Of a DNA stretch of 64,000 bases, positions 33,404-63,633 are shown one piece after another; within the stretch, counting starts at the first letter, position 1; each line of letters opens with the position of its first letter. Below the pieces are notes generated by a model, which ran no database searches, was not told where the DNA came from, and was given only the letters and a program-made list of their open reading frames with translations. Position numbers and translations under genes: made by a program. This stretch comes from Halomonas sp. YLGW01 (GTDB lineage Bacteria > Pseudomonadota > Gammaproteobacteria > Pseudomonadales > Halomonadaceae): the NCBI RefSeq assembly GCF_014840935.1, contig NZ_CP062005.1:1488001-1552000 (forward strand), in the 5' to 3' direction.

Positions 33404-34444
33404 GTGAATTCCTGGAAGATAGTGATAATTAAAATGAATCTAAAAGGGAAGAAAGTTCTCGTTACAGGTGCAGATGGCTTTATCGGCTCTCATCTTGTAG
33501 AAGCATTGGTTAGCCAGGGATGTTCCGTTCGAGCCTTCGTGATGTATAACTCCTTCAACTCCTGGGGGTGGCTTGATCATTGTTATCCGGGTGTTCGCAA
33601 TGATCTGGACATATTTGCTGGAGATATACGGGATCCAAATGGTGTTCGCCAGGCCATGAAAGGGTGTGATGTTGTCTTTCATCTTGCCGCCCTCATTGCA
33701 ATTCCCTATTCCTACCACTCACCTGATACCTACATTGACACCAATATCAAGGGCACGCTGAACGTTGTGCAGGCAGCCCGGGATTTGAACGTGGCGAAGG
33801 TCGTGCATACGTCTACCAGCGAAGTGTATGGAACGGCACGTTACGTGCCCATTAACGAAGAGCATCCTCTGCAAGGGCAGTCACCCTATTCCGCGTCCAA
33901 GATCGGGGCCGATCAACTTGCTCTGTCTTTCCAACGTTCGTTTTCTACTCCGGTGGCGCTGATTCGACCGTTCAATACCTACGGGCCACGCCAATCGGCT
34001 CGAGCCGTGATTCCCACCATTATCACTCAAGTTGCGTCCGGAGCACGTCGGCTGAGCCTCGGCGCCTTGCACCCCACCCGAGATTTCAGCTTTGTCTCCG
34101 ACACCGTCGCCGGCTTTATGCGCGTTGCTGAGTGCGATGCCGCCGTGGGAGAAGTGATCAACGTCGGCAGTGGTTTTGAGATCAGCATCGGAGACACCGC
34201 CGGCCTGATTGCCGAACTGATGGGCTGTGAGATCGACATCGGCCTCGATGAGCAGCGGCTGCGCCCTCGTGATAGCGAGGTCGAGAGGCTCTGGGCAAGC
34301 ACCGAGAAGGCCGCTCGGCTACTAGGGCACCGACCCGACCATGAAGGGCTCGATGGATTGCGTCGTGGACTAGAGAAGACCATTGCCTGGTTCGCCGAGA
34401 GTGAGAACCTGAGCCATTACAAGACGCACCTCTATAACATCTAG
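33404..34444 (+). CDS. legB: nucleotide-sugar 4,6-dehydratase, LegB family
   Basis: Extended SDR that makes the 4-keto-6-deoxy intermediate in legionaminic-acid synthesis. The Rossmann motif GADGFIGSH is at about 22-30; the LegB-type insertion YNSFNSWGWLD at about 48-58; the active site is TSTSEVYG and Tyr162-x3-Lys166 (PYSASKIG). GTG 33404 is preferred for its strong AAGGGG 7 bases upstream; ATG 33434 (MNLKGKKVLV) is the alternative. 346 aa. It heads the nonulosonic-acid genes. In known loci legC (aminotransferase) follows at once, but here only a 101-bp gap precedes legH. Confidence 0.9.
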   Translation: MNSWKIVIIKMNLKGKKVLVTGADGFIGSHLVEALVSQGCSVRAFVMYNSFNSWGWLDHCYPGVRNDLDIFAGDIRDPNGVRQAMKGCDVVFHLAALIAIPYSYHSPDTYIDTNIKGTLNVVQAARDLNVAKVVHTSTSEVYGTARYVPINEEHPLQGQSPYSASKIGADQLALSFQRSFSTPVALIRPFNTYGPRQSARAVIPTIITQVASGARRLSLGALHPTRDFSFVSDTVAGFMRVAECDAAVGEVINVGSGFEISIGDTAGLIAELMGCEIDIGLDEQRLRPRDSEVERLWASTEKAARLLGHRPDHEGLDGLRRGLEKTIAWFAESENLSHYKTHLYNI

Positions 34445-34545
34445 GCTCTGACTGAAAACTGCCGGCGCTCGCCGTCTTTTCGGACAAGGCCAAGCACCGA
34501 TATCAAGCGCACCGCTGTTGAGCCGTTGAGTAGCCAGGAGACCCA

Positions 34546-35172
34546 GTGAGCGAATTCTGCGTAGTAGGAGGTGGCGGCCATGCCCGGGTGTTGATTCATG
34601 GGCTTCTGAAGCTGGGTCATCAAGTTCATGGCTATACGGCGTTGCATGATGAGGGAAATCTAATGGGCGCTCGCTATCTTGGATCCGACATGGCATTTCA
34701 TGAGCATGAGGCTCATCGACCTGTCTCTGCGGTACTTGGGATGGGAAAGGTATCGGTAGCAGGGCCTCGGCTCGCACGCTTCGAGCAATACCGGGCCCGG
34801 GGTTTCCGCTTTCCGGCCATTTATACGGTCGGGGCTATTGTGCATGACGATGTTCGTGCCGGAGCCGGGACCGTCATTCTGGATGGCGCCGTGGTAGTAA
34901 CCGGCAGTCGTCTGGGGCAAGCCTGTATCGTCAATACCCGTGCCACGGTCGACCACGACTGCGAACTGGGTAATGACGTTCATGTCGCACCGGGCGCCAC
35001 TCTCAGCGGCGGCGTTGTGATTGGTGATCATTGCATGATCGGAACGGGCGCCAACATCATTCACTCCGTTCGGGTATGTGCGGGTTGTTTGATAGGTGCC
35101 GGTGCCACCGTGACCCGCGACATAGTCATGCCGGGGACTTATGTCGGCGTTCCGGCCAGGAGAATCTCATGA
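34546..35172 (+). CDS. legH: NeuD/LegH-family sugar N/O-acetyltransferase
   Basis: Left-handed beta-helix acyltransferase of 208 aa. The N-terminal Rossmann-like PglD/NeuD domain begins CVVGGGGHARVLIHGLL, and hexapeptide repeats run from about 100 to 200 (GAIVHDDVRAGAGTVILDGAVV, VNTRATVDHDCELGNDVHVAPGATLSGGVVIGDHCMIGTGA). The catalytic His is in TVDHDCELG. In a legionaminic pathway it would acetylate the 4-amino group of the dideoxy sugar. GTG 34546 has AGGAGA upstream. The stop overlaps the neuB-like start by 4 bp (ATGA). Confidence 0.85.
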   Translation: MSEFCVVGGGGHARVLIHGLLKLGHQVHGYTALHDEGNLMGARYLGSDMAFHEHEAHRPVSAVLGMGKVSVAGPRLARFEQYRARGFRFPAIYTVGAIVHDDVRAGAGTVILDGAVVVTGSRLGQACIVNTRATVDHDCELGNDVHVAPGATLSGGVVIGDHCMIGTGANIIHSVRVCAGCLIGAGATVTRDIVMPGTYVGVPARRIS

Positions 35173-36188
35173 GCACCTTGCCTTCCACCTTCGTGATCGC
35201 CGAGGCGGGTGTGAATCACAATGGCTCCTTGGACATGGCCATCGAACTTATCAATGCCGCCAAGCGGTGTGGGGCCGATGCCGTCAAGTTCCAGACCTTC
35301 AAGGCTGATCGACTGGTGACCCGCAATGCCAGTAAGGCTGCCTATCAGCATCAGGCCGTGCCGGGCTCGAACTCCCAGTATGCGATGTTGAAGGCCCTAG
35401 AGTTGACGGATGATGCCTTCCGGCATCTTCATTACCACTGCTTGGACATTGGCATCGAGTTCCTGTCCAGTCCCTTCGACGTCAGTAGCGCCACCTTTCT
35501 GGACGCACTCGGCATGCGTCTGTTCAAGGTTCCCTCTGGAGAGATCACGAACCTGCCTCTCCTGAAGTGCATCGGAGGCTTCGGCAAGCCGGTCATCCTG
35601 TCGACCGGCATGTGTTATTTGGCGGAGGTCGAGGTTGCCCTGAGCCTGTTGAAAGAGGCCGGGGCGGGGGACATCACGGTACTGCACTGTGTTACCGAAT
35701 ATCCGGCTCCCTATGCTGAGATTAACCTGCTGGCGATGAACACTCTCGCGAGTGCCTTTGGTGTCAGCGTGGGCTACTCCGATCATACGGCGGGTATTGA
35801 AATTCCCATCGCTGCCGTGGCCATGGGCGCCCGTGTGATCGAAAAGCACTTCACTCTGGATACCACCTTGTCAGGCCCCGATCATGCAGCTTCCCTGGCA
35901 ATCGAGGACTTTCGCCAGATGGTTCAGGCCATTCGCCATGTCGAGAGCGCCCGTGGCGATGGTCGCAAGTGTCCCGCCCCCTGCGAGCGTCCCAATCTCA
36001 ATGTGGTCCGCAAGAGCATCGCGACACAGCGCCCGGTTGCCGAGGGAGAAGTCATCACCCTAGATCATCTGGCATTGAAGCGGCCGGGGAGTGGGCTTGC
36101 TCCCAGCCAGCTCGAGGTGGTCGTGGGGTGCCGCGCGTCTCGCGCCATCGCTGCCGACGAACTCCTCGACTGGAGGGATCTGGTGTGA
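35169..36188 (+). CDS. legI: nonulosonic acid synthase, NeuB/LegI family
   Basis: Condenses phosphoenolpyruvate with a 6-carbon diacetamido sugar to form the nine-carbon nonulosonic acid. ATG 35169 overlaps the previous stop by 4 bp; the protein is 339 aa. The TIM-barrel NeuB domain has AEAGVNHNGSLDMAIELINAAKRCGADAVKFQTFKADRLV near the start, LKVPSGEITN-type residues (LFKVPSGEITNLPLL) and GYSDHTAGIEIPIAAVAMGARVIEKHFTLD. A C-terminal SAF (antifreeze-like) domain spans about 285-339 (VVRKSIATQRPVAEGEVITLDHLALKRPG). Next gene neuC/legG overlaps by 4 bp. Confidence 0.92.
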   Translation: MSTLPSTFVIAEAGVNHNGSLDMAIELINAAKRCGADAVKFQTFKADRLVTRNASKAAYQHQAVPGSNSQYAMLKALELTDDAFRHLHYHCLDIGIEFLSSPFDVSSATFLDALGMRLFKVPSGEITNLPLLKCIGGFGKPVILSTGMCYLAEVEVALSLLKEAGAGDITVLHCVTEYPAPYAEINLLAMNTLASAFGVSVGYSDHTAGIEIPIAAVAMGARVIEKHFTLDTTLSGPDHAASLAIEDFRQMVQAIRHVESARGDGRKCPAPCERPNLNVVRKSIATQRPVAEGEVITLDHLALKRPGSGLAPSQLEVVVGCRASRAIAADELLDWRDLV

Positions 36189-37381
36189 GCAGTCGACGTA
36201 TATGGGTTCTATCGACCACTCGCGCTGATTACGGCCTGCTCTTTTGGCTGTTACGTGAGATCGACGAGGATCCCGAGCTGGAGCTGATGCTGGCGGTCAG
36301 CGGGACGCACCTGTCTATCGAATTTGGTGAGACTGTTTGCGAGATCGAGCGAGATGGATTCCGTATTCATCGCCGTCTTGAGGTACTGCTGTCCTCTGAT
36401 AGCCGCACGGCGATGATCAAGGCGATGGGACTGGCCATGTTGTCATGTGCCGAGGCGCTGGCGGAGGATCGTCCCGATTTGCTGGTGTTATTGGGAGACC
36501 GGTTCGAGATCGTGCCGGTGGCACTCGCTGCGGTGGCGCACGGTATTCCCTTGGTGCACCTGCACGGAGGAGAAACCAGTCGTGGTGCCCTGGATGAGTA
36601 CTTCCGTCACGCTGTCACCAAACTTGCCAATATCCACTTTCCGGCGACCGAGGTTTATCGGCGGCGCATCATTCAGATGGGGGAGGATCCGGCATGGGTG
36701 TTCAATCACGGCGCGCCGGGCCTGGACCATCTTCACCGTAGCGAGCCGATTGGCCGCGATGCCTTGGCAGAGGCCCTCGGCATATCGCTGGACCGGCCGA
36801 CGGCCATCGCCACCTTTCATCCTGCCACCAGCGATATGACGACCGGCTGCAGGTCACAGGTAGCTAACCTGCTGGAGGCACTCGAGGCGTGTGACGATCT
36901 CCAGGTGGTTTTCTCCAAGGCTAATGCCGATACCCAGGGGCGGGATATCAATCTGGAGTTGACTCGCTGGTGTGTAGACCATCCCGGTCGCAGTCGCCTT
37001 TTCGACAACCTGGGGCCGCTGGTTTACCAGGGGTGCCTTCGCCATCTCGATCTGATGGTAGGTAATTCCTCTAGTGGCCTGGTTGAAGCGCCGTCTTTTG
37101 GGCTCCCTGTGGTGAACATCGGATCTCGTCAGGAAGGTCGCTTAGCCGCTGGCAATGTCATTTCAGTGGACAATCAGGTCGACGAGATTCGCCGGGGCAT
37201 TGCCCTCGCCCTGAGCCCTGAATTTCGAGCGCAACTCATCCATCTGCAAAATCCCTACGATCGCTACGGCGATGGTTGGACCTCGCGACGGATAAAGGAA
37301 ACCTTGAAGGTCGTTCCTCTGGACACGGGGTTGACCAAAAAAGGATTTATCGATGCCGCTATGGCAGCTGGGAACGAATGA
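36185..37381 (+). CDS. legG: hydrolysing nucleotide-sugar 2-epimerase, NeuC/LegG family
   Basis: GT-B-fold hydrolysing 2-epimerase of 398 aa that releases the mannosamine-type sugar used by the NeuB/LegI enzyme. GTG 36185 overlaps the previous stop by 4 bp and gives SSRRIWVLSTTRADYGLLFWLL, the NeuC start. Key features are VSGTHLS, LVLLGDRFEIVPVALAAVAHGIPLVHLHGGETSRGALDEYFRHAVTKLANIHF and VGNSSSGLVEAPSFGLPVVNIGSRQEGR. In the legionaminic pathway the substrate would be GDP-linked, in agreement with the ptmE gene next door. Confidence 0.9.
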   Translation: MSSRRIWVLSTTRADYGLLFWLLREIDEDPELELMLAVSGTHLSIEFGETVCEIERDGFRIHRRLEVLLSSDSRTAMIKAMGLAMLSCAEALAEDRPDLLVLLGDRFEIVPVALAAVAHGIPLVHLHGGETSRGALDEYFRHAVTKLANIHFPATEVYRRRIIQMGEDPAWVFNHGAPGLDHLHRSEPIGRDALAEALGISLDRPTAIATFHPATSDMTTGCRSQVANLLEALEACDDLQVVFSKANADTQGRDINLELTRWCVDHPGRSRLFDNLGPLVYQGCLRHLDLMVGNSSSGLVEAPSFGLPVVNIGSRQEGRLAAGNVISVDNQVDEIRRGIALALSPEFRAQLIHLQNPYDRYGDGWTSRRIKETLKVVPLDTGLTKKGFIDAAMAAGNE

Positions 37382-37395
37382 AGGGAGGTTATCCG

Positions 37396-38454
37396 ATGTT
37401 CGACTCACTCTTGATTGACGAGCAGCGCAAGGTCCTTGAAGCGTTACACCAACTGGAAGAGACCCGGCGTAAGATTCTCTATGTCACCAATGAGAAAGGC
37501 CAGTTGCGTGGGACACTGACGGATGGCGATGTGAGGCGCTGGATTCTGGGCGGTGGAGACCTGGAAGGGCAGGTCGGCGCTGTATGCAACCGCATCCCCT
37601 ATTCTGCGCGTGAAGGCTATCGAATCGCTGATATCGAAAGTGCCATGTCGATGCACAAGATCACATCGGTGCCGGTGCTGGATGACGATAATTGCATCAT
37701 CGATGTTGTATTCTGGGAAGACCTCTTCCAAAAGGGAGGTAGCATCAAGAAGCAGGAGCCTCTTGCGTTACCGGTAGTCGTCATGGCCGGTGGGAAGGGC
37801 TCTAGGCTTGCTCCCTTCACCAGCGTATTGCCCAAGCCGCTAATACCGGTTGGAGAAAAGACCGCTATCGAGATGATCATCGATTCATTCGTCCAGTGTG
37901 GTGTCGATGATTTCTATCTGTCGGTCAATTACAAGTCGAAGTTGATCCAGGCCTATTTCGAGGAACTCGAACCGTCCTATCGGATTAGCTATATCCATGA
38001 GGAAAAACCACTAGGCACGGGCGGGGGCTTGCATGCGTTGATAGGTCGCTTTAATGGCGACCTGATCGTGACCAATTGCGATGTCATTATCAAGGCTGAT
38101 TACCATGCCCTGATGGCGCATCACAGCCTGGAAAATAACGACATCACCATGGTCGTGTCACTACGCCATTACGATATTCCTTATGGCATCTGTGAGATTG
38201 TCGATAATGGCCAGCTCTGTGAGATGCGGGAAAAACCTCATTACAATTTCCTGGTTAACACCGGGCTTTATGTTCTCAAGGCCTCGGTGCTTGATTTGAT
38301 TCCCGAGAATGAGTTCTACCACCTCACCGATCTGATCCAGGACGTCAGGGATCGCGGCGGGCGTGTCGGCGTCTACCCGATCAGCGACAAGGCTTGGTTG
38401 GATACCGGTGAATGGCAACAGTACTGCGAAACCATGGCGCAGCTACGCGCTTGA
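37396..38454 (+). CDS. ptmE: CBS-domain nucleotidyltransferase, PtmE-like
   Basis: 352 aa: two CBS motifs (about 5-118, LRGTLTDGDVRRWIL and ITSVPVLDDDNCIIDVV) followed by a nucleotidyltransferase domain from about 125 (VVMAGGKGSRL, LPKPLIPVGEKTAIEMII, GTGGGLHALIGRFNGDLIVTNCDVI). This architecture is that of Campylobacter PtmE, which makes GDP-glucosamine for the GDP-based legionaminic route. ATG 37396 has GGGAGG 9-14 bases upstream; an upstream open frame is ignored. The gene lies between legG and legF, as in other nonulosonic loci. Confidence 0.87.
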   Translation: MFDSLLIDEQRKVLEALHQLEETRRKILYVTNEKGQLRGTLTDGDVRRWILGGGDLEGQVGAVCNRIPYSAREGYRIADIESAMSMHKITSVPVLDDDNCIIDVVFWEDLFQKGGSIKKQEPLALPVVVMAGGKGSRLAPFTSVLPKPLIPVGEKTAIEMIIDSFVQCGVDDFYLSVNYKSKLIQAYFEELEPSYRISYIHEEKPLGTGGGLHALIGRFNGDLIVTNCDVIIKADYHALMAHHSLENNDITMVVSLRHYDIPYGICEIVDNGQLCEMREKPHYNFLVNTGLYVLKASVLDLIPENEFYHLTDLIQDVRDRGGRVGVYPISDKAWLDTGEWQQYCETMAQLRA

Positions 38455-38503
38455 TCCCTCTCCGTGACAGCCACGGCATGCCCTTTGTTTGAAGGTGAAC
38501 GCA

Positions 38504-39220
38504 ATGATTGATAGCCAACGCGTCGTGGCCATGATCCCGGCTCGCGGCGGCAGCAAGACGATCCCTGGTAAGAACCTACGTGACCTCAATGGCAAGCCAT
38601 TGATTGCCTGGACCATTGAGTTGGCCTTGAGCCTCGAGGAAGTGGATCGGGTCATTGTGTCCACCGACAGCGAAGAAATTGCCGCCGTTGCACGCCAGTA
38701 TGGCGCTGAGGTCGTTTCTCGCCCTCCCGAGCTGGCAACCGATACCGCCTTGGTCCTGGATGCTGTGCGTGATCTCGCGCATCGCCTTCATCAAGAAGGT
38801 GAAGACGCGGCCTATGCACTCCTATTGGAGCCGACGGCACCCCTGCGCCGCGGTATCGATATGCAGTCCTGCCTGCAACGCTTGCATCAAGATGGCTTGG
38901 ACTCGGTGGCAACGTTCAAGCCCGCCGACCTGAACCCGCACCGGGCTTGGCGTATCCATGATGGGATGCCGGAAACCTTCGTAGAGGGCAGCGTGCCCTG
39001 GTTACCGCGGCAGCAATTGCCGGAGGCCTTTCAGCTCAGTGGTGAGGTTTATGCCTTCCGCCTCGACACGCTCGCAAAAGCGACACGAGGCATGCTGTTC
39101 GGGCGGACCGGGGCTGTGATTGTCGATGGAAAGACATCATTGGATATCGATAACGAACAGGATTTTCTTATCGCAGAATTCATCACCAGGGAGAGCCAGG
39201 ATGAACAGATCTCTGCATGA
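38504..39220 (+). CDS. legF: CMP-nonulosonic acid synthetase, NeuA/LegF family
   Basis: Cytidylyltransferase that activates the nonulosonic acid with CTP. The signature [26 protein letters not shown] is at about 14-39, followed by [33 protein letters not shown] and [15 protein letters not shown]. 238 aa from ATG 38504 with GAAGGTG upstream (a TTG 15 bp earlier keeps the frame). It overlaps the next gene by 20 bp. Whether the sugar is legionaminic or a relative cannot be told from this enzyme. Confidence 0.9.
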
Positions 39221-41371: not shown

Positions 41372-42376
41372 GTGAAGCAGAGCATGGGATACCGACAGCT
41401 GACCCAGATCCAACGATACCAGATCTATGCCCGTCATGACGTGGGCATGAGCCGACGTCAGATCGCCAGAGAGCTTGGCATTCACAACAGCACGGTCAGC
41501 CGGGAGCTGCGCCGAAACACCACCGACAGCGGTTACGATCCTGAGCAGGCGCAGTCCTGCAGTGATCATCGGCGACGCACTGCCTGGAAGAGGACAAAGC
41601 GCTTGCCCAGCCTGATTGCCGCTGTCGTCGACCGGCTGCGAGAGGAATGGAGCCCAGAGCAGATCAGCGGTTTCATGGCGCCCTTGTCTGGCGTCGGCGT
41701 CAGTCACCAGTGGATCTATTCCTTAATCTGGGATGACAAGGCCCGCGGTGGCGATCTCTGGCAGCACCTCCGCCAGCCCAAGCGGCGCAGCAAGCACCGG
41801 GCTCAAGCCAAGAGCGCAGGACTTGGTAAGATTCCCAACCGCGTGGGCATCGAGCATCGCGCGGCTGAGATCGATGAAAGGCGCTTCATTGGCCACTGGG
41901 AGGGTGACACCGTGGTCCAGGTGCACAAGCAGTCGGGCCTAGTCACGCTAGTCGAGCGACGTAGCGGCTATCTGCTGGCGGCACGGTTGCCCAAGCTTTC
42001 GGCGGAGCTGACGCAAAAGGCCATGATTCGGCTGCTAAAACCTCGCCGCGGTGCTGTCCAGACCATCACCCTGGACAACGGCTCGGAATTCGCTGATCAC
42101 GAGACCGTGGCCCAGGCGGTAACGGCAGCGACGTACTTCTGCGATCCCTACTGCTCCGGGCAGCGTGGGACCAATGAGAACACCAATGGCCTGATACGAC
42201 AGTACTTCCCCAAGGGAACGGACTTTCGACAGGTCACCGATGCCAAGCTGCGCAAGGTGGTCGAGAAGCTGAATGACCGACCCCGAAAGCGTCTCGGCTA
42301 TCGCACACCGGCACAGGTGTTCCTGGGGGAATATTCAGGAGCCCTGGATACCGCAGGTGCTGCGCTTGTTGCTTGA
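41372..42376 (+). CDS. IS30-family transposase
   Basis: DDE transposase of about 334 aa. The N-terminal helix-turn-helix is IQRYQIYARHDVGMSRRQIARELGIHNSTVSRELRRN. The catalytic core starts near 170: first Asp in GHWEGDTVV, second Asp in TLDNGSEFADH, Glu in TNENTNGLIRQYFPKGTDF. All three acidic residues are present, so it looks functional. The start may be GTG 41372 or ATG 41384 (MGYRQLTQ). The stop falls inside the right inverted repeat. Confidence 0.93.
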   Translation: MKQSMGYRQLTQIQRYQIYARHDVGMSRRQIARELGIHNSTVSRELRRNTTDSGYDPEQAQSCSDHRRRTAWKRTKRLPSLIAAVVDRLREEWSPEQISGFMAPLSGVGVSHQWIYSLIWDDKARGGDLWQHLRQPKRRSKHRAQAKSAGLGKIPNRVGIEHRAAEIDERRFIGHWEGDTVVQVHKQSGLVTLVERRSGYLLAARLPKLSAELTQKAMIRLLKPRRGAVQTITLDNGSEFADHETVAQAVTAATYFCDPYCSGQRGTNENTNGLIRQYFPKGTDFRQVTDAKLRKVVEKLNDRPRKRLGYRTPAQVFLGEYSGALDTAGAALVA

Positions 42377-54221: not shown

Positions 54222-55433
54222 ATGAAACGATTCCTGATGATTGCCAGTTTTCCTGATTCCCTTGTCACTTTCCGTGGCCAGTTGCTCGATGCATTGCGCG
54301 AAAATGGATGTGAGGTGCATGTCGCATGCCCTGACATTCGCAAGGATAGCGCGGTCTGTGAGCACTTGGAGTCCAGGGGGATTATCGTGCATGACATCCC
54401 GATGCAGCGCACGGGGATAAACCCGGTGGCCGACCTCAAGACACTCGGAAATCTCTCCCGCCTGATGCGCCGTATTCAGCCAGATGTCGTCATGGGGTAC
54501 ACCATTAAGCCGGTGATCTATGGAACTCTCAGTGCTTGGCTGTGCCAAGTGCCCAGGCGATTTGTCTTGATCACTGGCCTGGGCTATACATTCACCTCCG
54601 ATGCATCGGGTAGATGGTTCTGCAAGCGCCGGGGGTTGCTGTGGGTCGTAGGATCCCTGTACCGCCTGGCTTTGCTCGGAGCCCACAAGGTGTTCTTCCA
54701 GAACCCCGATGACCAGGCGCTCTTTCGGCAACTGAAGGTGCTTTCGGCCAGGAGCCCCTCGCACGTCGTCAACGGCTCTGGGGTTGACCTGGACCAGTAC
54801 GCTGTGGCGTCACAGGCGAAGGGTCCGCTCAGATTTCTGATGATCGCCAGACTGCTCGGTGATAAGGGTGTGCGCGAGTATGTAAAGGCTGCCCGACAAG
54901 TGCACCGGACCCATCCTCAAGTGACGTTCGCCTTGGCAGGCTGGATTGATGACAATCCCGATGCCATTGCCCCACAGGAGCTCGATGATTGGATCGTCGA
55001 GGGCACCGTCGACTATCTCGGCTGTCTCGATGATGTACGGCCTGCTATTGCTGCTTGCCATGTCTACGTGCTGCCTTCCTATCGCGAAGGCACGCCTCGC
55101 ACGGTACTCGAAGCCATGGCTATGGGGAAAGCGGTCATTACCAGCGATGCGCCTGGCTGCCGAGAGACTGTGATCGATGGAGTGAATGGCTACCTGGTAC
55201 CGGTTCGCGATGTCTCTCAGCTTGCCGTCGCCATGCGGCGTTTCATCGATACTCCTGAGCTGACTGGGGCTATGGGCTGCAAATCACGTGAGATCGCTGA
55301 GGCCAAGTACGACGTCAACAAGGTCAATGCGGATATTCTTGAGCAGCTGGGCATGGGCGCTAATGCACAGGAACCTCGTGCCGAGGCGGTGACGAGAGAA
55401 TTGAGAGGCTTACATGGCAAAACGACTCCTTGA
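54222..55433 (+). CDS. family 4 (GT-B) glycosyltransferase
   Basis: 403 aa. The N-terminal Rossmann half begins FLMIASFPDSLVTFRGQLLDALRENGCEVHVACPD and includes PDVVMGYTIKPVIYGTLSAWL. The C-terminal half has FLMIARLLGDKGVREYVKAARQ, then the donor-site signature VLPSYREGTPRTVLEAMAMGKAVITSDAPGCRETVIDGVNGYLVPV at about 285-331 (two Glu of the E-x7-E motif). This is a retaining GT4-type enzyme. It overlaps the PglC-like gene by 20 bp, so it may add the second sugar to the lipid-linked residue. GC content is back to the genome-like level. Confidence 0.9.
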   Translation: MKRFLMIASFPDSLVTFRGQLLDALRENGCEVHVACPDIRKDSAVCEHLESRGIIVHDIPMQRTGINPVADLKTLGNLSRLMRRIQPDVVMGYTIKPVIYGTLSAWLCQVPRRFVLITGLGYTFTSDASGRWFCKRRGLLWVVGSLYRLALLGAHKVFFQNPDDQALFRQLKVLSARSPSHVVNGSGVDLDQYAVASQAKGPLRFLMIARLLGDKGVREYVKAARQVHRTHPQVTFALAGWIDDNPDAIAPQELDDWIVEGTVDYLGCLDDVRPAIAACHVYVLPSYREGTPRTVLEAMAMGKAVITSDAPGCRETVIDGVNGYLVPVRDVSQLAVAMRRFIDTPELTGAMGCKSREIAEAKYDVNKVNADILEQLGMGANAQEPRAEAVTRELRGLHGKTTP

Positions 55434-56007
55434 CCTCAGCGTTGCGATGTTCCTGCTCGTTGCGCTATCACCTGTCATTGCCATCGCGGCGGTGTTGATC
55501 GCGCTCAGGTTGGGGCGCCCAGTGTTCTTTCGGCAGCACCGCCCCGGCCTTCATGGACGACCCTACGAGATCGTCAAGTTCCGGACCATGCGGGATTCGT
55601 TCGACTCACAGGGAAGGCCGTTGCCCGATGAGGCGCGGATGACGCGGCTGGGCACCTGGTTGCGGGCGACCAGCATCGACGAGCTGCCCGAACTCTGGAA
55701 CGTCGTCAGAGGGGACATGAGTTTGGTCGGCCCTCGTCCGCTGATGATGGAGTATTTGCCCCGTTATAGTGCCGAGCAGCAGCGTCGTCACGACGTACTC
55801 CCCGGCATCACTGGCTGGGCCCAGGTGCACGGACGTAACTCGCTTTCCTGGCAAGAGAAGTTCGAGCTTGACGTTTGGTACGTGGATCACCGCACGGCAT
55901 GGCTGGACCTGCGCATTCTGATGTTGACCGTGAAGAAGGTATTTTACCAAGACGGGATCTCGGCGGAAGGGCATGTGACCGTCGATGATTTCTATGGCAA
56001 CGATTGA
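55414..56007 (+). CDS. pglC: PglC-like phosphoglycosyl transferase
   Basis: Monotopic enzyme of 197 aa that transfers a sugar-1-phosphate to undecaprenyl phosphate, starting the repeat unit. It is colinear with Campylobacter PglC (about 200 aa). The N-terminal re-entrant helix carries the Ser19-Pro20 break, RPGLHGRPYEIVKFRTMRD follows, the catalytic Asp89-Glu90 dyad lies in SIDELPELWNV, then SLVGPRPLMMEYLP and PGITGWAQVHGRN, and the C-terminus ISAEGHVTVDDFYGND mirrors PglC. PglC uses UDP-N,N'-diacetylbacillosamine, so a 4-amino-4,6-dideoxy sugar is the likely first residue. It overlaps the previous gene by 20 bp. Confidence 0.9.
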   Translation: MAKRLLDLSVAMFLLVALSPVIAIAAVLIALRLGRPVFFRQHRPGLHGRPYEIVKFRTMRDSFDSQGRPLPDEARMTRLGTWLRATSIDELPELWNVVRGDMSLVGPRPLMMEYLPRYSAEQQRRHDVLPGITGWAQVHGRNSLSWQEKFELDVWYVDHRTAWLDLRILMLTVKKVFYQDGISAEGHVTVDDFYGND

Positions 56008-56074
56008 CGCTTCGGCCCAGGGATCATCTCTTTGTTGCATGAAGCCAACTCCATGAGGCTGGAGGAATTGGGGT

Positions 56075-57277
56075 ATGTCCTACGATTACACATTGCTTGC
56101 AGATATCTCGGGGCGCGTGGGAGGCTCCTTTTACATTTTCGATAGCGAGTTGTTCGAACATAACTATCGAGCATTCAGGGAGAGTCTCCGTCATTATTAT
56201 CAAAATGCTGATGTTGCCTACTCATTCAAGGCTAACTATATGCCAGAGTTGGGGCGAATTCTGAATGACCTGGGAGGCATAGGGGAAGTCGTCTCTCGGC
56301 TTGAGTACGATATCGCCAGACGAAACCTGCCGCCTAATCGATTGATCTTCAACGGCCCGGTGAAGCGGGAGGAGGATGTGAGGTACTGTATCGCTTCCGG
56401 TTCACGCCTCAATATTGATTCGTTCAACGAGATTAAATATCTCGAGGACCTGTCAGAAAGTTTCGACCATATCGAGGTAGGGCTAAGGGTCAGCTTTTCC
56501 CTGGAGGGCCGGACCTCGAGGTTCGGTTTCTGTTGCGACAACGGTGACTTGGAAAAAGCGGTTAAGCGGCTTCAGGCGATCGGCAACGTGACGGTTAACG
56601 GCATCCACTCCCACCTCAGTACGCGTGAAAAGAGCCTGGCGTTGTTTGCTTCGAGATCGAGGAAAATGATTGAGCTGGCCAACCGCATCAGCCCCTCCCG
56701 CCCAGTAAAATCCATCAACGTCGGGGGAGGGTTCTTCGGTCAGATACCGGCAGCGATGCGAGAACAGTTTCCCCCTGACCTTCCTTCCTTCGATGACTAT
56801 GCTAGTACCATTGGTGGCATCTTCCACCGTGAATACGGAGACCATGGGCCGCGGCTGATCATCGAGCCGGGTATCTCTCTGATTGGTAATACCATGGTGC
56901 TGGTTGCCGAAGTCCTCGAGATCAGAGAACGACAAGACATCAAGTACGCCTTGTTGGACACCAGTATCAATGTCGTCAACCCGACGCATTCGACGGCCAG
57001 GCGATGCTTCTCAATCGTGCCTCGCCAAGCTCTGTCCGAACCCGGCCATGACCGCTATGTGTTGGTCGGCAACACCTGCATGGAGCACGACGTCATCGAT
57101 GCCAGTTACGAGGGCCGGTTGCAGCGAGGCGATTTCGTCGTCTTTCCCAATCGCGGGGCCTATTCCAACAACTACACCCCGCCCTTCATCATGCCCTCTG
57201 CCGCGATCGTCTCTCCCAGCGGCGTCATCTACAAGGAAAGGGATGGCGTGGAGAGTATTCTCGCGACCTATCGTTAG
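56075..57277 (+). CDS. fold-III PLP decarboxylase (Orn/DAP/Arg decarboxylase 2 family)
   Basis: 400 aa. The alanine-racemase-like barrel carries the PLP lysine Lys52 in AYSFKANYMPELG, the glycine loop INVGGGFFG for the phosphate, and EPGISLIGNTMVLVAEVLEI. The second domain has the catalytic Cys in NTCMEHDVIDA at about 330, followed by DFVVFPNRGAYSNNYTPPF. This is the family of diaminopimelate, ornithine and carboxynorspermidine decarboxylases. Its position between the PglC-like gene and an ATP-grasp gene is not that of lysA. It probably makes a small amine or amino acid for decoration of the glycan. The substrate cannot be named from sequence. Confidence 0.82.
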   Translation: MSYDYTLLADISGRVGGSFYIFDSELFEHNYRAFRESLRHYYQNADVAYSFKANYMPELGRILNDLGGIGEVVSRLEYDIARRNLPPNRLIFNGPVKREEDVRYCIASGSRLNIDSFNEIKYLEDLSESFDHIEVGLRVSFSLEGRTSRFGFCCDNGDLEKAVKRLQAIGNVTVNGIHSHLSTREKSLALFASRSRKMIELANRISPSRPVKSINVGGGFFGQIPAAMREQFPPDLPSFDDYASTIGGIFHREYGDHGPRLIIEPGISLIGNTMVLVAEVLEIRERQDIKYALLDTSINVVNPTHSTARRCFSIVPRQALSEPGHDRYVLVGNTCMEHDVIDASYEGRLQRGDFVVFPNRGAYSNNYTPPFIMPSAAIVSPSGVIYKERDGVESILATYR

Positions 57278-57362
57278 CTATCTGTTTTATCTCCGGCGAC
57301 CGTTGTTTGTCCGGCGCCATAACTGCCTGCAACTTCAATGACTAGCTTCCTGGAGAATTACG

Positions 57363-58418
57363 ATGAACGTGTTGTTGACCTGCGTGGGGCGAAGAAGCTA
57401 CCTAGTCGACTATTTCAGGCAGGCATTGGCCGGCGAGGGCGTGGTCATTGGTGTCGACATGGACCCCAACACTGCCGGTATGGCATGCGTCGATAAGGCA
57501 TATCTTGTACCACGGGCCGACTCGGGCGACTACATTCCGACGCTGCTGGACATCTGCATGCGAGAGCGTGTTGGCCTACTGGTGTCGCTGTCTGACCTGG
57601 ACCTGGGGCCGCTGTCTCGCGCCATCGAAGATTTCGGTCGCTTCGGCGTCCAGGCGTTCGTCAGCGATCCTGAGGTCATTGAGGTGGCCAATGACAAGTG
57701 GGCGTGTTTCGAGTTTCTTCAGCGCCACCGCATCCCGAGTCCAGTCACTTGCCTCCAACTGGACAAGGCGCAGCATCATCTCCGTGATGGCCATCTTGCT
57801 TTCCCGCTAATGGTCAAACCGAGGTGGGGCATGGGTTCGGTCTCACTGTTCAAGGTCAACGACGACGAGGAACTGGCATTCTTCTATCATTATGCCCGCA
57901 AGCAGGTCCGCGACTCATTCCTTCACGTGATCAGTCAGGATGATATCGATCACTCGGTGATTATCCAGGAGTTCCTCGGAGGCGACGAATACGGCATTGA
58001 CGTGTTGCACGACTTTGACGGCGAGCACGTTGCCACGGTGGTCAAGCGAAAGCTCTCCATGCGGGCCGGCGAAACCGATAGCGCTATGACCGTCGAGGAT
58101 CGCGGGGTGGCAAACACCGCGGAACGCGTTGCCGCACTTCTTCGGCATAGGGGAAACCTGGATATCGACATCATGCTGGACGCCGCTGGTTTGCCGCGCG
58201 TGCTAGAGCTCAATGCGCGATTCGGCGGTGGCTATCCTTTCTCGCATCTTGCCGGTGTAGATTTTCCCAGAGCATTGATCGAGCTGGCGGAGGGGCGGCG
58301 ACCCGCGCCTTATCTATTACGCCCTTCCGTTGGAGTACGGAGCATGAAGCATATTGTGCCGACCGTATATTCACCCCTGCGGTCTGAAAAGACTATTGAG
58401 GTACGTTACCCCTCATAG
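57363..58418 (+). CDS. ATP-grasp carboxylate-amine ligase
   Basis: 351 aa. Pre-ATP-grasp domain at about 1-105 (MNVLLTCVGRRSYLVDYFRQAL...VIGVDMDPNTAGMACVDKAYLVP). The ATP-grasp core follows, with nucleotide-binding Lys in FPLMVKPRWGMGSVSLF at about 140-156, VIIQEFLGGDEYGIDVL near 200, and metal-binding Glu/Asn in RVLELNARFGGGYPFSHLAG near 283-302. Such enzymes activate a carboxylate as acyl phosphate and join it to an amine; CarB is a distant relative. Between a PLP decarboxylase and a DegT aminotransferase it most plausibly acylates an amino sugar with an amino-acid-derived carboxylate. This is inference. AGGAGAATTACG precedes ATG 57363; 64 bp separate it from the previous PLP gene region's end feature of non-coding sequence. 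Confidence 0.82.
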   Translation: MNVLLTCVGRRSYLVDYFRQALAGEGVVIGVDMDPNTAGMACVDKAYLVPRADSGDYIPTLLDICMRERVGLLVSLSDLDLGPLSRAIEDFGRFGVQAFVSDPEVIEVANDKWACFEFLQRHRIPSPVTCLQLDKAQHHLRDGHLAFPLMVKPRWGMGSVSLFKVNDDEELAFFYHYARKQVRDSFLHVISQDDIDHSVIIQEFLGGDEYGIDVLHDFDGEHVATVVKRKLSMRAGETDSAMTVEDRGVANTAERVAALLRHRGNLDIDIMLDAAGLPRVLELNARFGGGYPFSHLAGVDFPRALIELAEGRRPAPYLLRPSVGVRSMKHIVPTVYSPLRSEKTIEVRYPS

Positions 58419-58496
58419 GATGCATGGTCAGTATGCGGCCATCGCCGGCGGTCAGTCGGCGTTCCGTAGAGCAGCATAGCCTTGGAGGGCGCCAGT

Positions 58497-59669
58497 ATGC
58501 TCAATTCTCATTTTTCTCCCTGGCCTTGTTTCAGCGAAGCCGAGGTCCAAGCCGTCAAGCGAGTGCTGTGCTCCAATCGCGTCAACTACTGGACAGGGGG
58601 AGAGGGACGCGCCTTCGAGAGCGAGTTTGCTCGCTTTGCGGGCACCGAATACGCCGTTGCTGTTTCCAATGGCACCACCGCCCTGGACTTGGCAATGAAG
58701 GCACTGGGAATCGGTGTGGGCGATGAAGTGGTGGTCACTTCTCGAACCTTCATGGCGTCGGTGTCTTCCATTGTCATCGCTGGTGCAGTGCCTGTCTTTG
58801 CGGATGTCGATCGCGACTCCCAGAACATTACGGCTAGCACCGTGGCGCCTTTGATTACGTCGCGCACCAAAGCCATCATTGCGGTCCACCTGGCTGGCTG
58901 GCCCTGTGACATGGACGGTCTGATGTCGCTGGCAGAAGGCCATGGTCTCTATGTAATCGAAGACTGTGCGCAGGCGCATGGGGCTAGCTGGCGCACGCGC
59001 AGTGTTGGAGGGATCGGGCATATCGGCGCCTGGTCCTTCTGTCAGGACAAGATCATGTCTACCGGCGGGGAGGGGGGCATGGTCACTACCAATGATCGGG
59101 CTCTGTGGCATCGGATGTGGGCCTACAAGGATCACGGCAAGAGTTGGGAGGCGGTCTACGAGCGGGAGCACCCGCCAGGCTTTCGCTGGTTGCATGAATC
59201 CTTCGGTACCAACTGGCGGCTGACCGAGATGCAGGCGGCCATTGGTCGCCTTCAGCTGCGCCGCATGCCGGACTGGACGCGGCAGCGCCGTGACAATCTG
59301 GATCGCATTTGGCAGGCGGCCAGAGCCTGTGGCCTGCGTGTGCCTGAGTTGCCAGGACATGTCGGACACGCCGCCTACAAGGCCTATGTGTTTGTTGATC
59401 CGCTGGCACTGCGGCCGGGGTGGAATCGTGACCGGATCATCGACGAGATTCAGCAGCGGGGGGTGCCGTGTCTGGGGGGGAGCTGTTCCGAGGTATATCG
59501 CGAAAAGGCCTTCGATGACACGGGGTGGCGGCCTGCTCATGCCCTGCCGGTCGCCGCCGAACTGGGGAAGACCAGCTTGATGTTCCTTGTCCATCCCACG
59601 TTGACCTCGGAGGAGATTGACCGCACCTGTCTGGCGTTACAGGAGGTAATGGCACTGGCTGCGGTTTGA
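58497..59669 (+). CDS. DegT/DnrJ/EryC1-family sugar aminotransferase
   Basis: 390 aa PLP enzyme that transaminates keto-sugars on a nucleotide carrier. ATG 58497 is chosen for GGAGGG 8-13 bases upstream; a TTG 15 bp earlier keeps the frame. The AVSNGTTALDLAMKALGIGVGDEVVVTSRTF block is at about 55-85, Asp156 in VIEDCAQAHGA contacts the PLP ring nitrogen, and the Schiff-base Lys185 lies in FCQDKIMSTGGEGG. With the WbpM/PglF-type dehydratase encoded at 61074 it could form the PglF-PglE pair that makes UDP-4-amino-4,6-dideoxy-HexNAc. It is the only sugar aminotransferase in the locus, so it may also have to replace the missing LegC. No acetyltransferase (PglD) follows. Confidence 0.88.
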   Translation: MLNSHFSPWPCFSEAEVQAVKRVLCSNRVNYWTGGEGRAFESEFARFAGTEYAVAVSNGTTALDLAMKALGIGVGDEVVVTSRTFMASVSSIVIAGAVPVFADVDRDSQNITASTVAPLITSRTKAIIAVHLAGWPCDMDGLMSLAEGHGLYVIEDCAQAHGASWRTRSVGGIGHIGAWSFCQDKIMSTGGEGGMVTTNDRALWHRMWAYKDHGKSWEAVYEREHPPGFRWLHESFGTNWRLTEMQAAIGRLQLRRMPDWTRQRRDNLDRIWQAARACGLRVPELPGHVGHAAYKAYVFVDPLALRPGWNRDRIIDEIQQRGVPCLGGSCSEVYREKAFDDTGWRPAHALPVAAELGKTSLMFLVHPTLTSEEIDRTCLALQEVMALAAV

Positions 59670-59765: not shown

Positions 59766-61052
59766 TTAGAGTCGTAAGTCGGCCTCGCCATTCCCCAGCA
59801 GGTACTTCAGATCAAACAGCACGTGGCTGGGTTTGCCCCAGGAGCGTATACGGTCAACGCCATAGTCGCGGAATTCATCGTGGGCGACCGCCAGTATCAT
59901 CGCATCATAGCTACCCACATCTGGCCGGTCGACGGGTCGGATCGTATAGGCGCGCTGGGCTTCGTCACGATCGGCATGAGGGTCGAAGACATCGACCATG
60001 ACATTGAAGTCCGCCAGTTCTCGAATGATATCGGTGACACGTGTATTGCGCAGATCGGGGCAGTTCTCCTTGAACGTCAGGCCCAGGATCAGCACCCGTG
60101 CGCCTTGTACGTGGATTCGTTCCTTAATCATCTGCTTGACCAGCTGGCCTGCCACATAGGCGCCCATACCATCATTGATACGCCGGCCTGACAGGATGAC
60201 TTCCGGATGATAGCCCACCTGTTGGGCCTTGTGCGTAAGATAATAGGGGTCGACACCGATGCAGTGCCCGCCTACCAGTCCTGGCCGGAAGGGAAGAAAA
60301 TTCCACTTGGTTCCCGCTGCCAGCAGGACTTCTTCGGTATCAATACCCAAGCGGCTGAAGATCATGGCCAACTCGTTGATCAGGGCAATGTTTACATCAC
60401 GCTGAGTGTTTTCGATGACCTTGGCGGCCTCCGCGACTTGCATTGAACTGGCTTTGAAGGTACCCGCTATGATGATTGATGCATAGAGATCGTCGACGAA
60501 GGTTGCCACAACTGGAGTCGATCCTGAGGTCACTTTCCTGATCGAGGTGACTCGGTGTTCCTTGTCGCCTGGATTGATGCGCTCTGGACTATAGCCGGCG
60601 AAGAAGTCGCGATTGTAGATCAGCCCTGAGCCCTGCTCGATGACAGGAATGCATTCCTCTTCGGTAGCACCCGGATAGACGGTCGACTCATAGATGACGA
60701 GATTGCCTGGCGAAATGACGTGGGCTACCGTCTGGCTGGCTTTGAGCAATGGCGTCAGATCCGGGCAGTGCTGTGCGTCGATCGGCGTTGGAACCGTGAC
60801 TATATAGACATTGCATTCCCGCAGTCGCTCGACATCATCACTGAAGTCGAGATGTTTTGCGCATCTTAGCTCATCGAATGAGACTTCTCGCGTGGTGTCG
60901 AGGCCATCGGTGAGCTGCAGGATTCGATGGGTATTGATGTCGAAACCCAGTGTCGGGTAACGCTTGCCGAATTCCACGGCCAGAGGCAAGCCGACATAGC
61001 CCAGTCCAATCACGCCAATACGAATAGAATCCAGCTTCAGGGTCAGGTCCAT
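59766..61052 (-). CDS. tviB: UDP-N-acetylhexosamine 6-dehydrogenase, TviB/WbpO-like
   Basis: 428 aa nucleotide-sugar dehydrogenase that oxidises C6 of UDP-GlcNAc or UDP-GalNAc to a uronic acid in two NAD-linked steps. The Rossmann motif [13 protein letters not shown] is at 13-25; Lys211 lies in [12 protein letters not shown]; Asn225 and the catalytic Cys264 lie in [13 protein letters not shown]. The C-terminal UDP-binding domain has [17 protein letters not shown]. Length equals S. Typhi TviB (about 425). It shares orientation with the dehydratase gene 21 bp upstream. The product would suit amidation by the asparagine-synthase-like enzyme encoded at 50091. Confidence 0.92.
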
Positions 61053-61073: not shown

Positions 61074-63128
61074 TCAGAAGTGGCTGTCCTTGGCCAGGGC
61101 CGCGGTCGAGAGATTGAGTTGAGTTGACACTACCTTTAGGGCTGTGGGCGTTGGTGTGGAAGCTCTTTGGCTGACTGGGTGCTTTTCCTTGTCAACGACT
61201 GCAGTCTCTGTTGGCGGATGTGCCGTTGTATCCCCGTATTGCTGGAGCCAAAGCAGGTCGGAAATGGGGTGGTTGGGGTGGTAATCGATAGGGGCTTCCA
61301 GCAACAATTCTCTGATAACCTCGTGCTGGACCTTGACCACAGCGTTATGCAAACGACGAAGGTAGGCTTCCAGGCGCGGCCACTCCCAGCAGGTTTCCCG
61401 TGCGGTCATGATCCGTGGATGTGCTGTCGATGTGGTATTGGTGCCGGTCAGCAGCTCCTCATAGAGCTTTTCCCCTGGGCGCAGGCCGCTATAGTGGATA
61501 GCGATGTCGCCATCTGTGCTGTCCTCGGTGATCAATTCCAAACCCGAAAGGCGAACCATTTGCTTTGCCAAATCGGCAATTTTGATCGGTTCACCCATGT
61601 CCAGAACGAACACATTCCCGCCACTACCCATTGCACCTGCCTGAATCACCAACTGAGCGGCTTCGGGGATAGTCATGAAGTAGCGCGTTATATTGGGGTG
61701 GGTCACCGTAATCGGTCCGCCATCGCGTATCTGGCGCCTGAACAACGGCACAACGGAGCCGGATGAGCCTAAGACATTGCCAAATCGAACCATGCAAAAA
61801 CGCGTCTTTACCTGCTCACTGGACAGGGCCTGGCAGACAAGCTCTGCAAGACGCTTGGTTGTGCCCATGACATTGGTTGGCCGCACGGCTTTATCGGTCG
61901 AGATCAAAACGAAGGTTTCAACGCCGCACTCGATAGCTGCCTGCGCGGTCTTCAGTGTACCGAAAACATTATTACGGATGCCTTCGACCATGTTGTGTTC
62001 CACCATCGGCACGTGCTTGTAGGCGGCGGCATGATAGAGCGTCTGCACACCAAAGCTGCGCATGGTAAGCGTGAGGCGTGGCCGGTGCTGGACGGATACC
62101 AGCAGTGCCTTGATGGAAATATCGAGATGATGGCGTTCAGCGAGTGCCTTGATTTCTTGCTCCACCCGGTAAAGGGCATACTCACAGACGTCCAGCAGTA
62201 GAAGCTGGCGTGGCTGCTGTAGAAGAATCTGCCGGCTCAGCTCGGAACCTATCGAGCCGCCTGCTCCAGTCACCATTACAACCTTGCCCAAGATATTGGC
62301 CTGCATCAGTAACGGCTGCGGTGGCACGGGATCGCGTCCCAGGAGATCTTCGACGGTTACGTTGCGAATGTCGTTGATTCTCGCGCGTCCGGCGACAATG
62401 TCGGCCGTACCCGGCACGGTTTGCACGGGGATCATCAGTGGCTCTAGAGCACTCAAGACGGCCCGTCTCCTCGCCCTAGTCGCGCTGGGAATCGCCAATA
62501 GAATCCGCTCTACGCCGTAGTCATTGATAAGTTGGCCTACCTTTGCCGGGGAGTACACTTCCAGTCCCTCGACATGAGTGCCATGCATACCTCGCCAGTC
62601 ATCCACAAAGGCCACCGGCACATGTTGATCGCTATGTTTCAGTGAATTTACCAAGTGGGCTCCGGCGGCCCCAGCGCCGTATATCACGACACGTGTTCGG
62701 TTCTTGATGCTTTCCCTTCTGTAGGCTGCGCGGAGCAGGTAACGGATACCGCCAATACTCACGAATGCCAGCAGGAAAAAGACGACGGAAATGGAGATGG
62801 GAGATGGCGTTCCCAGCGCGAAGCTAACGGTGATAAGTGTTACCGTCGTGGCGACCAGTCCTTGCAAAATGGTTTTTAGAGCGCGTTGGTTGATATATCG
62901 AATAACCGCGCGATAAAATCCCAGTCTGATAAAGAAGTAGATACTTACTGGAAGTGTGGTAAGAAATGCCAGCCAGATTTCCTTATCCAGTATCTTATCC
63001 CAATGTTCGAATTTAATCAGCATCGCTATCAAGAAGCTAAGCGTCAAGGAGGTAGAATCAACCATTATCTGGATGAGTCGCTTGTAAATACGAGGCAACC
63101 TGAAAATGTAATCAATTGATTTGTACAC
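61074..63128 (-). CDS. wbpM: membrane UDP-GlcNAc 4,6-dehydratase, WbpM/PglF/CapD family
   Basis: 684 aa from GTG 63128, which has GAGGG 8-12 bases upstream; the open frame reaches 63218. Four N-terminal transmembrane helices (about 15-120) precede a CoA-binding-like Rossmann domain (VVIYGAGAAGAHLVNSLKHS) and the catalytic SDR domain with GAGGSIGSELSRQ at about 288-300 and STDKAVRPTNVMGTTKR at about 406-422 (Met-Lys in place of Tyr-Lys, characteristic of this family). The product is UDP-4-keto-6-deoxy-HexNAc, the precursor of bacillosamine- and FucNAc-type sugars. The C-terminal about 40 residues are Thr/Pro-rich. It starts the minus-strand pair with the TviB-like dehydrogenase. Confidence 0.93.
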   Translation of the reverse strand: MYKSIDYIFRLPRIYKRLIQIMVDSTSLTLSFLIAMLIKFEHWDKILDKEIWLAFLTTLPVSIYFFIRLGFYRAVIRYINQRALKTILQGLVATTVTLITVSFALGTPSPISISVVFFLLAFVSIGGIRYLLRAAYRRESIKNRTRVVIYGAGAAGAHLVNSLKHSDQHVPVAFVDDWRGMHGTHVEGLEVYSPAKVGQLINDYGVERILLAIPSATRARRRAVLSALEPLMIPVQTVPGTADIVAGRARINDIRNVTVEDLLGRDPVPPQPLLMQANILGKVVMVTGAGGSIGSELSRQILLQQPRQLLLLDVCEYALYRVEQEIKALAERHHLDISIKALLVSVQHRPRLTLTMRSFGVQTLYHAAAYKHVPMVEHNMVEGIRNNVFGTLKTAQAAIECGVETFVLISTDKAVRPTNVMGTTKRLAELVCQALSSEQVKTRFCMVRFGNVLGSSGSVVPLFRRQIRDGGPITVTHPNITRYFMTIPEAAQLVIQAGAMGSGGNVFVLDMGEPIKIADLAKQMVRLSGLELITEDSTDGDIAIHYSGLRPGEKLYEELLTGTNTTSTAHPRIMTARETCWEWPRLEAYLRRLHNAVVKVQHEVIRELLLEAPIDYHPNHPISDLLWLQQYGDTTAHPPTETAVVDKEKHPVSQRASTPTPTALKVVSTQLNLSTAALAKDSHF

Positions 63129-63633
63129 TGTTGCACCCTCATCCCTGTATTTTGTGCGACTATTGTTTCTTATTAAAGCGCATCGATTATAGTTATTGTA
63201 TGAAATGTTTCTTTGCATTCAGCTTATAAAATACCGTCAGGCTTTATGTTGATGCATGGTGCTTACGCTTATTGTTACTTTCTGTTTCATTGTGATTTTG
63301 TGTTTCTTTATGATAATGGTCGTAAGGGGGCTTACCAAGATGATTTTTCTAGTCTGTTGATGACTGAAGGGATATGCATAAGCATTAGTTCTTTAATTTT
63401 TTTTGAGTAATGTTTTCTGTCATTCCTTTGCTTTCTATTAGTTCCTTGTTGCTATATTAGAGGTTTAATGCTCACTTATCTTTGCCGGCTTTCCGTTTTT
63501 TTAATACATTTGATGTGGGTGGTTAGGCGAGCGAATGATTGGCGGAGGTCATCTTGAGCGTTTCTAATTGGACTCAACCACGCTTATCATGAATTATCAG
63601 GACGCCCTTCAGGCTCCTCATCAGGGAATTGAT
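63129..63633. other. 505-bp AT-rich divergent intergenic region
   Basis: It separates the minus-strand dehydratase gene from the plus-strand epimerase gene and is markedly AT-rich with T-rich runs. No credible gene is seen, and no ops-like element or terminator. It should contain divergent promoters, but no box stands out enough to call. Confidence 0.5.

Follow-up and report, generated by a model that had tools for sequence, protein, structure and literature searches.

How is the 4-amino group of a bacillosamine-type sugar acylated when the acetyltransferase PglD is missing from the gene row? A locus of Halomonas sp. YLGW01 raises this question. It lies in a stretch of 64,000 nucleotides (contig NZ_CP062005.1, positions 1,488,001 to 1,552,000 of the forward strand; hereafter the window, from whose first letter coordinates are counted) that belongs to a single-contig genome of 3.45 Mb. 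Here, five consecutive genes on the plus strand, with one overlap and otherwise gaps of less than 90 bases, encode a family 4 glycosyltransferase (GT4), a PglC-like phosphoglycosyl transferase (PglC), a fold-III pyridoxal phosphate (PLP) decarboxylase (DEC), an ATP-grasp ligase (GRASP) and a DegT-family sugar aminotransferase (DegT). An earlier note on this DNA, made from the letters alone, had placed the last four on one strand in this order and a PglF-type dehydratase on the other, and this was borne out (Table 1). The chemistry that these genes appear to make available comprises 4,6-dehydration, C4-amination, ATP-dependent ligation, alpha-decarboxylation and transfer to a lipid carrier. We moderately favour the reading that a 4-N-acylated bacillosamine variant is synthesised and loaded by the cassette, with GRASP and DEC replacing PglD.

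Table 1. Genes of the cassette and of its surroundings in the window, with the matches that identify them (UDP, uridine diphosphate; GlcNAc, N-acetylglucosamine).
Feature	Position	Strand	Matches
Family 4 glycosyltransferase (GT4)	54222..55433	+	PF13692/PF00534; overlaps pglC
PglC-like phosphoglycosyl transferase	55414..56007	+	PF02397 213 bits; 8g1n 212.8 bits
DEC, fold-III PLP decarboxylase	56075..57277	+	PF02784 and PF00278 above cut-off
GRASP, PylC-like ATP-grasp carboxylate-amine ligase	57363..58418	+	PF21360, PF15632 and PF02655 above cut-off; NF009404
DegT/PglE-type sugar C4-aminotransferase	58497..59669	+	PF01041 309 bits; 7l7x 567 bits
TviB-like UDP-GlcNAc 6-dehydrogenase	59766..61052	-	NF011729 623 bits, cut-off 592
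PglF-type UDP-GlcNAc 4,6-dehydratase	61074..63218	-	PF02719 406 bits
NeuD/PglD-family hexapeptide acetyltransferase	34546..35172	+	TIGR03570 175 bits, cut-off 160.8

The closest solved chain to DegT, matched over residues 3-391, is 7l7x, which we take to be Pcryo_0638, a UDP-4-keto-6-deoxy-GlcNAc C4-aminotransferase. Its family and its closeness to 7l7x place DegT among the C4-aminotransferases of the PglE/Pcryo_0638 type, and from this proximity to a characterised enzyme we predict that it aminates UDP-4-keto-6-deoxy-GlcNAc. The reading frame proposed earlier for this gene was real and ends at 59669, but its TTG start at 58482 is less likely than the ATG at 58497, which stands behind GGAGGG. 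The best solved relative of PglC, 8g1n, is a diacetylbacillosaminyl-phosphate transferase, and GT4 is kept in front of the cassette in congeners, as seen from synteny in loci L071, L073 and L075. In its abstract, PMC8040287 describes Pcryo_0638 as a UDP-4-keto-6-deoxy-GlcNAc C4-aminotransferase, and the window resembles Pcryo_0638/Pcryo_0637 and Campylobacter PglE/PglD in sharing this dehydratase–aminotransferase route; where those systems have the acetyltransferase Pcryo_0637 or PglD as partner, the window has DEC and GRASP instead.

GRASP scored 331.6 bits with NF009404 (cut-off 316) and 72 bits with PF21360 (cut-off 27) and is a PRK12767-type ATP-grasp with a PylC-like N domain; Lys112, Lys152, Asn284 and Arg286 were invariant in 23 aligned rows, two of which lack the N terminus. 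An alignment of DEC with 23 rows held Lys52, His178, Gly217-219, Glu264, Cys335 and Asp339 invariant. The PLP lysine K52, the cysteine motif at C335 and D339, present in 23/23 rows, are those of a fold-III PLP decarboxylase, and we place DEC in this fold because sequence comparison already suffices; a structure prediction reached a predicted local distance difference test (pLDDT) score of 74.5. DEC scored far below the cut-offs of the models for FslC (NF041039, 132 bits, cut-off 500) and LysA (TIGR01048, 127 bits, cut-off 297.9), and its assignment as the housekeeping LysA was rejected, as a genuine LysA with 541 bits is encoded elsewhere in the genome. Alignments also separated the two by motif: LysA chains have EPGR and an RP[AS]xY stretch, and DEC has EPG[IVT] and mostly NPTxS. 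The Arg of EPGR and the Arg and Tyr of RP[AS]xY presumably bind the substrate of LysA and hold its distal carboxylate. Because these residues are lost, and because DEC is kin to N-citrylornithine decarboxylase and to BtrK, action on a conjugate fits. Its closest solved relative, the N-citrylornithine decarboxylase FslC (7kh2), acts on an amidated amino acid; FslC retains the Arg of E-x-G-R, which DEC lacks.

In the pathway that we propose, PglF and DegT would produce UDP-2-acetamido-4-amino-2,4,6-trideoxy-glucose. GRASP most likely acylates the 4-amine of this UDP-sugar: ATP would activate a carboxylate, which would be joined to the sugar 4-amino group in place of the reaction of PglD with acetyl-CoA. 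The acid, we infer, is derived from an amino acid and would probably be attached through its side-chain carboxylate, with aspartate or glutamate as first guesses. DEC most likely acts on this amino-acid part, and would strip the alpha-carboxylate, before or more likely after joining, so that the amide left behind, for example beta-alanyl or 4-aminobutyryl, carries a free amine. Transfer of the sugar phosphate to undecaprenyl phosphate by PglC would follow.

The claim of the earlier note that amidation takes the place of acetylation gained from the mutual exclusion of ATP-grasp and acetyltransferase genes by DegT, from a swap between congeners and from the co-occurrence of DEC with DegT, and lost from the presence of a NeuD gene 20 kb away. 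We searched 275 genomes of the family for the DegT clade (E 1e-95) and found 112 places; with L152 unclassified and the duplicate L150 (the same place as L123) removed, 111 classified loci remained. Survey labels were BLAST matches to reference proteins, and Pfam was run on four representatives, one for the sulfotransferase group and one for each of three ATP-grasp groups, as well as on two GNAT-like proteins. Within three genes upstream of DegT, a PglD/NeuD hexapeptide acetyltransferase was found in 40 of the 111 loci, an ATP-grasp in 35, a GNAT-like protein in 5 and a sulfotransferase-like protein in 6. An acetyltransferase and an ATP-grasp never occurred there together (0/111); the two are alternatives beside DegT. 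The 35 ATP-grasps formed three sequence groups of 14, 12 and 9 (the group of 12 gave 21-25% matches to GRASP, and its representative stayed below Pfam cut-offs). Acetyltransferases, like ATP-grasps of the first two groups, lay mostly between PglC and DegT, and the GNAT-like and sulfotransferase-like genes before PglC. On the DegT tree the upstream label changed at least 35 times, where 6 changes suffice for seven clean groups and shuffled labels gave 63 (by a quick method); the upstream genes have therefore been exchanged often, and not at random.

Two further kinds of gene were seen in front of the aminotransferase. A sulfotransferase-family protein precedes PglC and DegT in L132, L144, L147, L166, L168 and L174 (Pfam on L174), which makes sulfation of the 4-amino sugar or its amide possible. 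In L170, a formyltransferase and then a PIG-L deacetylase stand before the C4-aminotransferase; the same sequence groups recur in L139 and L216, and this gene pair suggests formylation of the sugar.

An exchange can be followed within the genus itself. Genomes G166 and G167 carry the compared polysaccharide-locus genes in the same order as the window, at 75-97% identity, but a GNAT-like protein (PF13480 at E 0.003, below cut-off) and a different PglC (35%) replace the window's PglC, DEC and GRASP, before the same DegT. The window DegT is sister to the DegT of these two genomes (SH-aLRT 96), with that of Onishia taeanensis outside, whereas the window GRASP groups with O. taeanensis GRASP (99/99). 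Within the genus, the aminotransferase was therefore retained while the cassette beside it changed. The closest named relatives in our scan were two O. taeanensis records (Halomonadaceae), with DEC 87% identical. A locus of the GNAT type, L133, is the next relative of the whole genus group, and the swap could have run in either direction.

Across the family, DEC was found in 22 of the 275 genomes (E 1e-40) at 23 places including the window, and in 22 of these 23, L056 being the exception, GRASP lies on the same strand no more than 2.2 kb away, midpoint to midpoint. A trio conserved next to PglC had been expected; the pairing of DEC with GRASP held, but PglC adjoins DEC in just 8 of the 23 loci. 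PglC and the trio as one fixed unit were accordingly dropped, and the fixed unit is DEC-GRASP only. The DegT clade was present in 20 of the 22 genomes with DEC and in 76 of the 253 without it (Fisher P = 2e-8, a value that ignores kinship and is weaker within genera). When stratified by genus, with ranges of genome numbers taken to be genera, the co-occurrence gave P = 0.006 for g8 (G027-G116), P = 0.013 for g23 (G192-G273) and P = 0.29 for the window's own genus (3/3 versus 2/4). In the two genomes with DEC that lack the clade, G022 and G064, a DegT-family gene of more remote kinship (24-28% identity) occurs no further than 3.5 kb from DEC.

Wider samples, each of which includes the window's own genome, held DEC relatives in 4 of 390 genomes of the order (two of them from the family, namely that of the window and G027), 3 of 369 of the class and 3 of 398 of the phylum. 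Within the phylum sampled and at the thresholds used, DEC is rare outside Halomonadaceae. L085, from another family of the same class, has PglC-DEC-GRASP, and L076, also from outside Halomonadaceae, has DEC-GRASP. No relatives were confirmed in viral contigs, and none were found in plasmids at E 1e-30. Three loci of other families (L077 8743-12347, L084 7427-11051 and L086 8255-11808; labelled by Pfam in L077 and by eye in the other two) show another arrangement, with no GRASP, in which a distant DEC (~30%) lies close to PglC, to an IlvE-like aminotransferase and to an HpcH/HpaI-like protein.

GRASP itself was found in 33 genomes (34 places), 21 of which have DEC. In L118, L122 and L123 a fold-II PLP enzyme (CuyA/ACC-deaminase-like, below curated cut-offs; 8065-9036 in L118 and 5517-6437 in L122) lies between PglC and GRASP, followed by DegT; L122 has one further open reading frame between PglC and GRASP. 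Such a change of partner would be expected if the PLP enzyme serves to tailor the acid. In four g10 genomes examined, GRASP comes after RmlB-RmlA (labels assigned in this analysis), a DegT and a GNAT, with no DEC; three g10 genomes, G120, G121 and G128, were left out of the wider neighbourhoods. GRASP is the more constant of the two genes, and its PLP partner varies.

Several observations weigh against GRASP and DEC having replaced PglD. In 25 of the 111 loci the three genes preceding DegT include none of the enzymes sought; this count is an upper bound, because 28 of the loci reach only ~1.5 kb to either side of DegT. Nine of the 35 ATP-grasps, those of the third group, stand ahead of PglC and outside the PglC–DegT interval. 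In L124, L125 and L202, a NeuD gene follows one to three open reading frames downstream of an ATP-grasp–DegT pair. DEC is absent from 12 of the 33 genomes with GRASP and is therefore not required for GRASP action. PglC lies within ~5 kb of DEC in 10 of the 23 loci, and at six DEC loci (L041-L043, L048, L053 and L056) neither PglC nor DegT was matched in the ~20 kb covered. The structure prediction of GRASP was poor (pLDDT 49), so that its active site is not readable from the model. Both the choice of aspartate or glutamate and the sequence in which GRASP and DEC would act are guesses. Finally, PglD had been called absent, which is correct for the cassette locus but not for the window: a NeuD/PglD-family acetyltransferase, the sole family match above cut-off in the genome, is encoded 20 kb from the cassette in the same exopolysaccharide locus.

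This NeuD could acetylate the sugar and so lead to ordinary diacetamido-bacillosamine, leaving DEC-GRASP to modify something else. Its score above the family cut-off and its position in the same locus favour this, and so do its surroundings. The window contains at 33404-39220 a LegB-NeuD-NeuB-NeuC-nucleotidyltransferase-CMP-transferase (CMP, cytidine monophosphate) block with no LegC aminotransferase, and the genome has two strong DegT-family matches, the cassette DegT and a second that neighbours a hexapeptide protein in a different cluster; DegT may therefore serve the LegB block too, and DegT and NeuD might cooperate. However, the place of NeuD between LegB and NeuB argues for nonulosonate synthesis. 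The LegB-NeuD-NeuB-NeuC order is common to G165, G166 and G167, and is thus kept in two genomes, G166 and G167, that lack DEC-GRASP; NeuD is above cut-off in all three as well as in G168. Moreover, an acetyltransferase that lies within three genes of DegT in 40 of the 111 loci is 20 kb away here. We consider acetylation by this NeuD quite improbable. The polysaccharide locus also holds a transposase-like reading frame with HTH_38 and rve domains (window 41372-42376).

The six stand-alone DEC loci bear on another possibility, namely that DEC-GRASP, with PhyH and GNAT enzymes, serves to produce a small metabolite in free form, for instance an osmolyte or part of a siderophore, and that its placement among polysaccharide genes is secondary. 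That the closest solved relative of DEC, N-citrylornithine decarboxylase, is a siderophore enzyme points the same way. We nevertheless find this unlikely, as the 20 of 22 genomes in which DEC coexists with the sugar aminotransferase clade include all six with stand-alone loci, where the module may therefore act in trans. In addition, the module adjoins PglC in L044, L045, L046, L049 and L051 and lies within ~5 kb of it in L050 and L055, several of these loci having a Wzy-like gene in the same row, and in the window and both O. taeanensis loci DEC-GRASP sits between PglC and DegT.

The gene next to the cassette suggests yet another use of the pair, in which DEC would supply an amine with which GRASP amidates the carboxylate of a uronic acid residue from the same polysaccharide. 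An extract of PMC11800397 establishes a precedent in Campylobacter jejuni, where the decarboxylase Cj1436 and the ATP-dependent amide ligase Cj1438C, from one capsule locus, form an amide on glucuronate, and in the window the TviB uronate gene adjoins the cassette. TviB is, however, a neighbour outside the acylation step: congeners keep it without DEC-GRASP, and only 5 of the 23 DEC loci have a TviB match nearby, one of them at 23% identity. The Campylobacter pair also differs from DEC-GRASP in its uronic acid amide and in its ligase, Cj1438C being described in an extract of PMC11800379 as a TupA-like ATP-grasp. No TupA-like ATP-grasp model appeared among the Pfam hits of GRASP up to E 0.001, which sets GRASP apart from ligases of the Cj1438C kind, and GRASP occupies the position that PglD has in relatives. 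On the TviB, congener and TupA evidence, uronic acid amidation was rejected as the principal explanation, and we assign it a low probability.

If, as we prefer, GRASP and DEC build an acyl group on the 4-amine, DEC would free a side-chain amine, and enzymes that modify such a side chain are expected to travel with it. A PhyH-family dioxygenase is found within 4 kb of DEC in 18 of the 23 loci (the match being partial in L055 and L056), and these 18 loci all carry, on the same strand, a GNAT (14 loci) or a formyltransferase (6 loci), two of them having both (matches >45 bits). The five loci without PhyH (the window, the two O. taeanensis loci, L057 and L058) have neither, and in L057 and L058 DEC and GRASP are separated by a sulfotransferase gene. 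A search of G000, G165 and G168 at E 0.001 gave no PhyH relative. In the relatives, PhyH would hydroxylate the side chain and the GNAT or formyltransferase would cap it; in the window's genus, where none of the three was found beside DEC, the amine may stay free.

A similar logic operates in butirosin synthesis, in which the ATP-grasp BtrJ joins glutamate to a carrier, the fold-III decarboxylase BtrK converts it to 4-aminobutyryl and a hydroxylase follows. DEC and GRASP resemble this pair in combining an ATP-grasp with a fold-III decarboxylase, and chains 2j66 and 7ru7 are among the DEC matches, BtrK being one of several distant relatives. The carrier in butirosin synthesis is an acyl carrier protein, whereas the carrier proposed here is a nucleotide sugar. 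It is conceivable, and we put it forward tentatively, that the locus represents a modular side-chain factory in which an acidic amino acid is attached to a UDP-4-amino sugar by an ATP-grasp, DEC converts this residue on the sugar to an omega-amino acyl group, and PhyH with GNAT or formyltransferase finishes it in relatives. Butirosin-like logic would thereby have been transferred from the carrier protein of an antibiotic to the sugar that begins an O-antigen or exopolysaccharide, in a cassette exchanged with PglD, GNAT, sulfotransferase and other ATP-grasps.

Replacement of the acetyltransferase by an ATP-grasp has a precedent, and the view that no characterised pathway has this composition was too broad. 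According to an extract of PMC11130364, Neisseria PglB2 unites an ATP-grasp with a transferase and yields a glyceramide instead of an acetamide. The likeness lies in the gene arrangement: in both cases an ATP-grasp with a PglC-type transferase would supplant the acetyltransferase and bring another 4-N-acyl group, and the window has the ATP-grasp beside PglC and the C4-aminotransferase with no acetyltransferase in the row. PglB2 differs in being bifunctional and in its glyceramide product, and the extract names no decarboxylase. Amino-acyl and hydroxy-acyl amides on polysaccharides are on record, with alanyl, hydroxybutyryl and other amides on amino sugars of marine polysaccharides (extract of PMC3210612) and amide-linked lactate in a Psychrobacter capsule (extract of PMC7281560). 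What appears to be new is that a fold-III decarboxylase and an ATP-grasp are paired where PglD would otherwise stand; among the papers listed by our searches of the open-licence PMC literature, we found no description of this or of such a pair acting on an amino sugar.

The cassette thus offers a small set of enzymes for assay, including a decarboxylase–ligase pair for which those searches yielded no characterised amino-sugar counterpart. The amide group on such a sugar affects the charge, the antigenicity and probably the phage recognition of surface glycans. Our survey points to a slot in which the acylating enzyme changes while the dehydratase, aminotransferase and transferase stay, and this variable slot could allow the amide groups of these sugars to be predicted from genomes.

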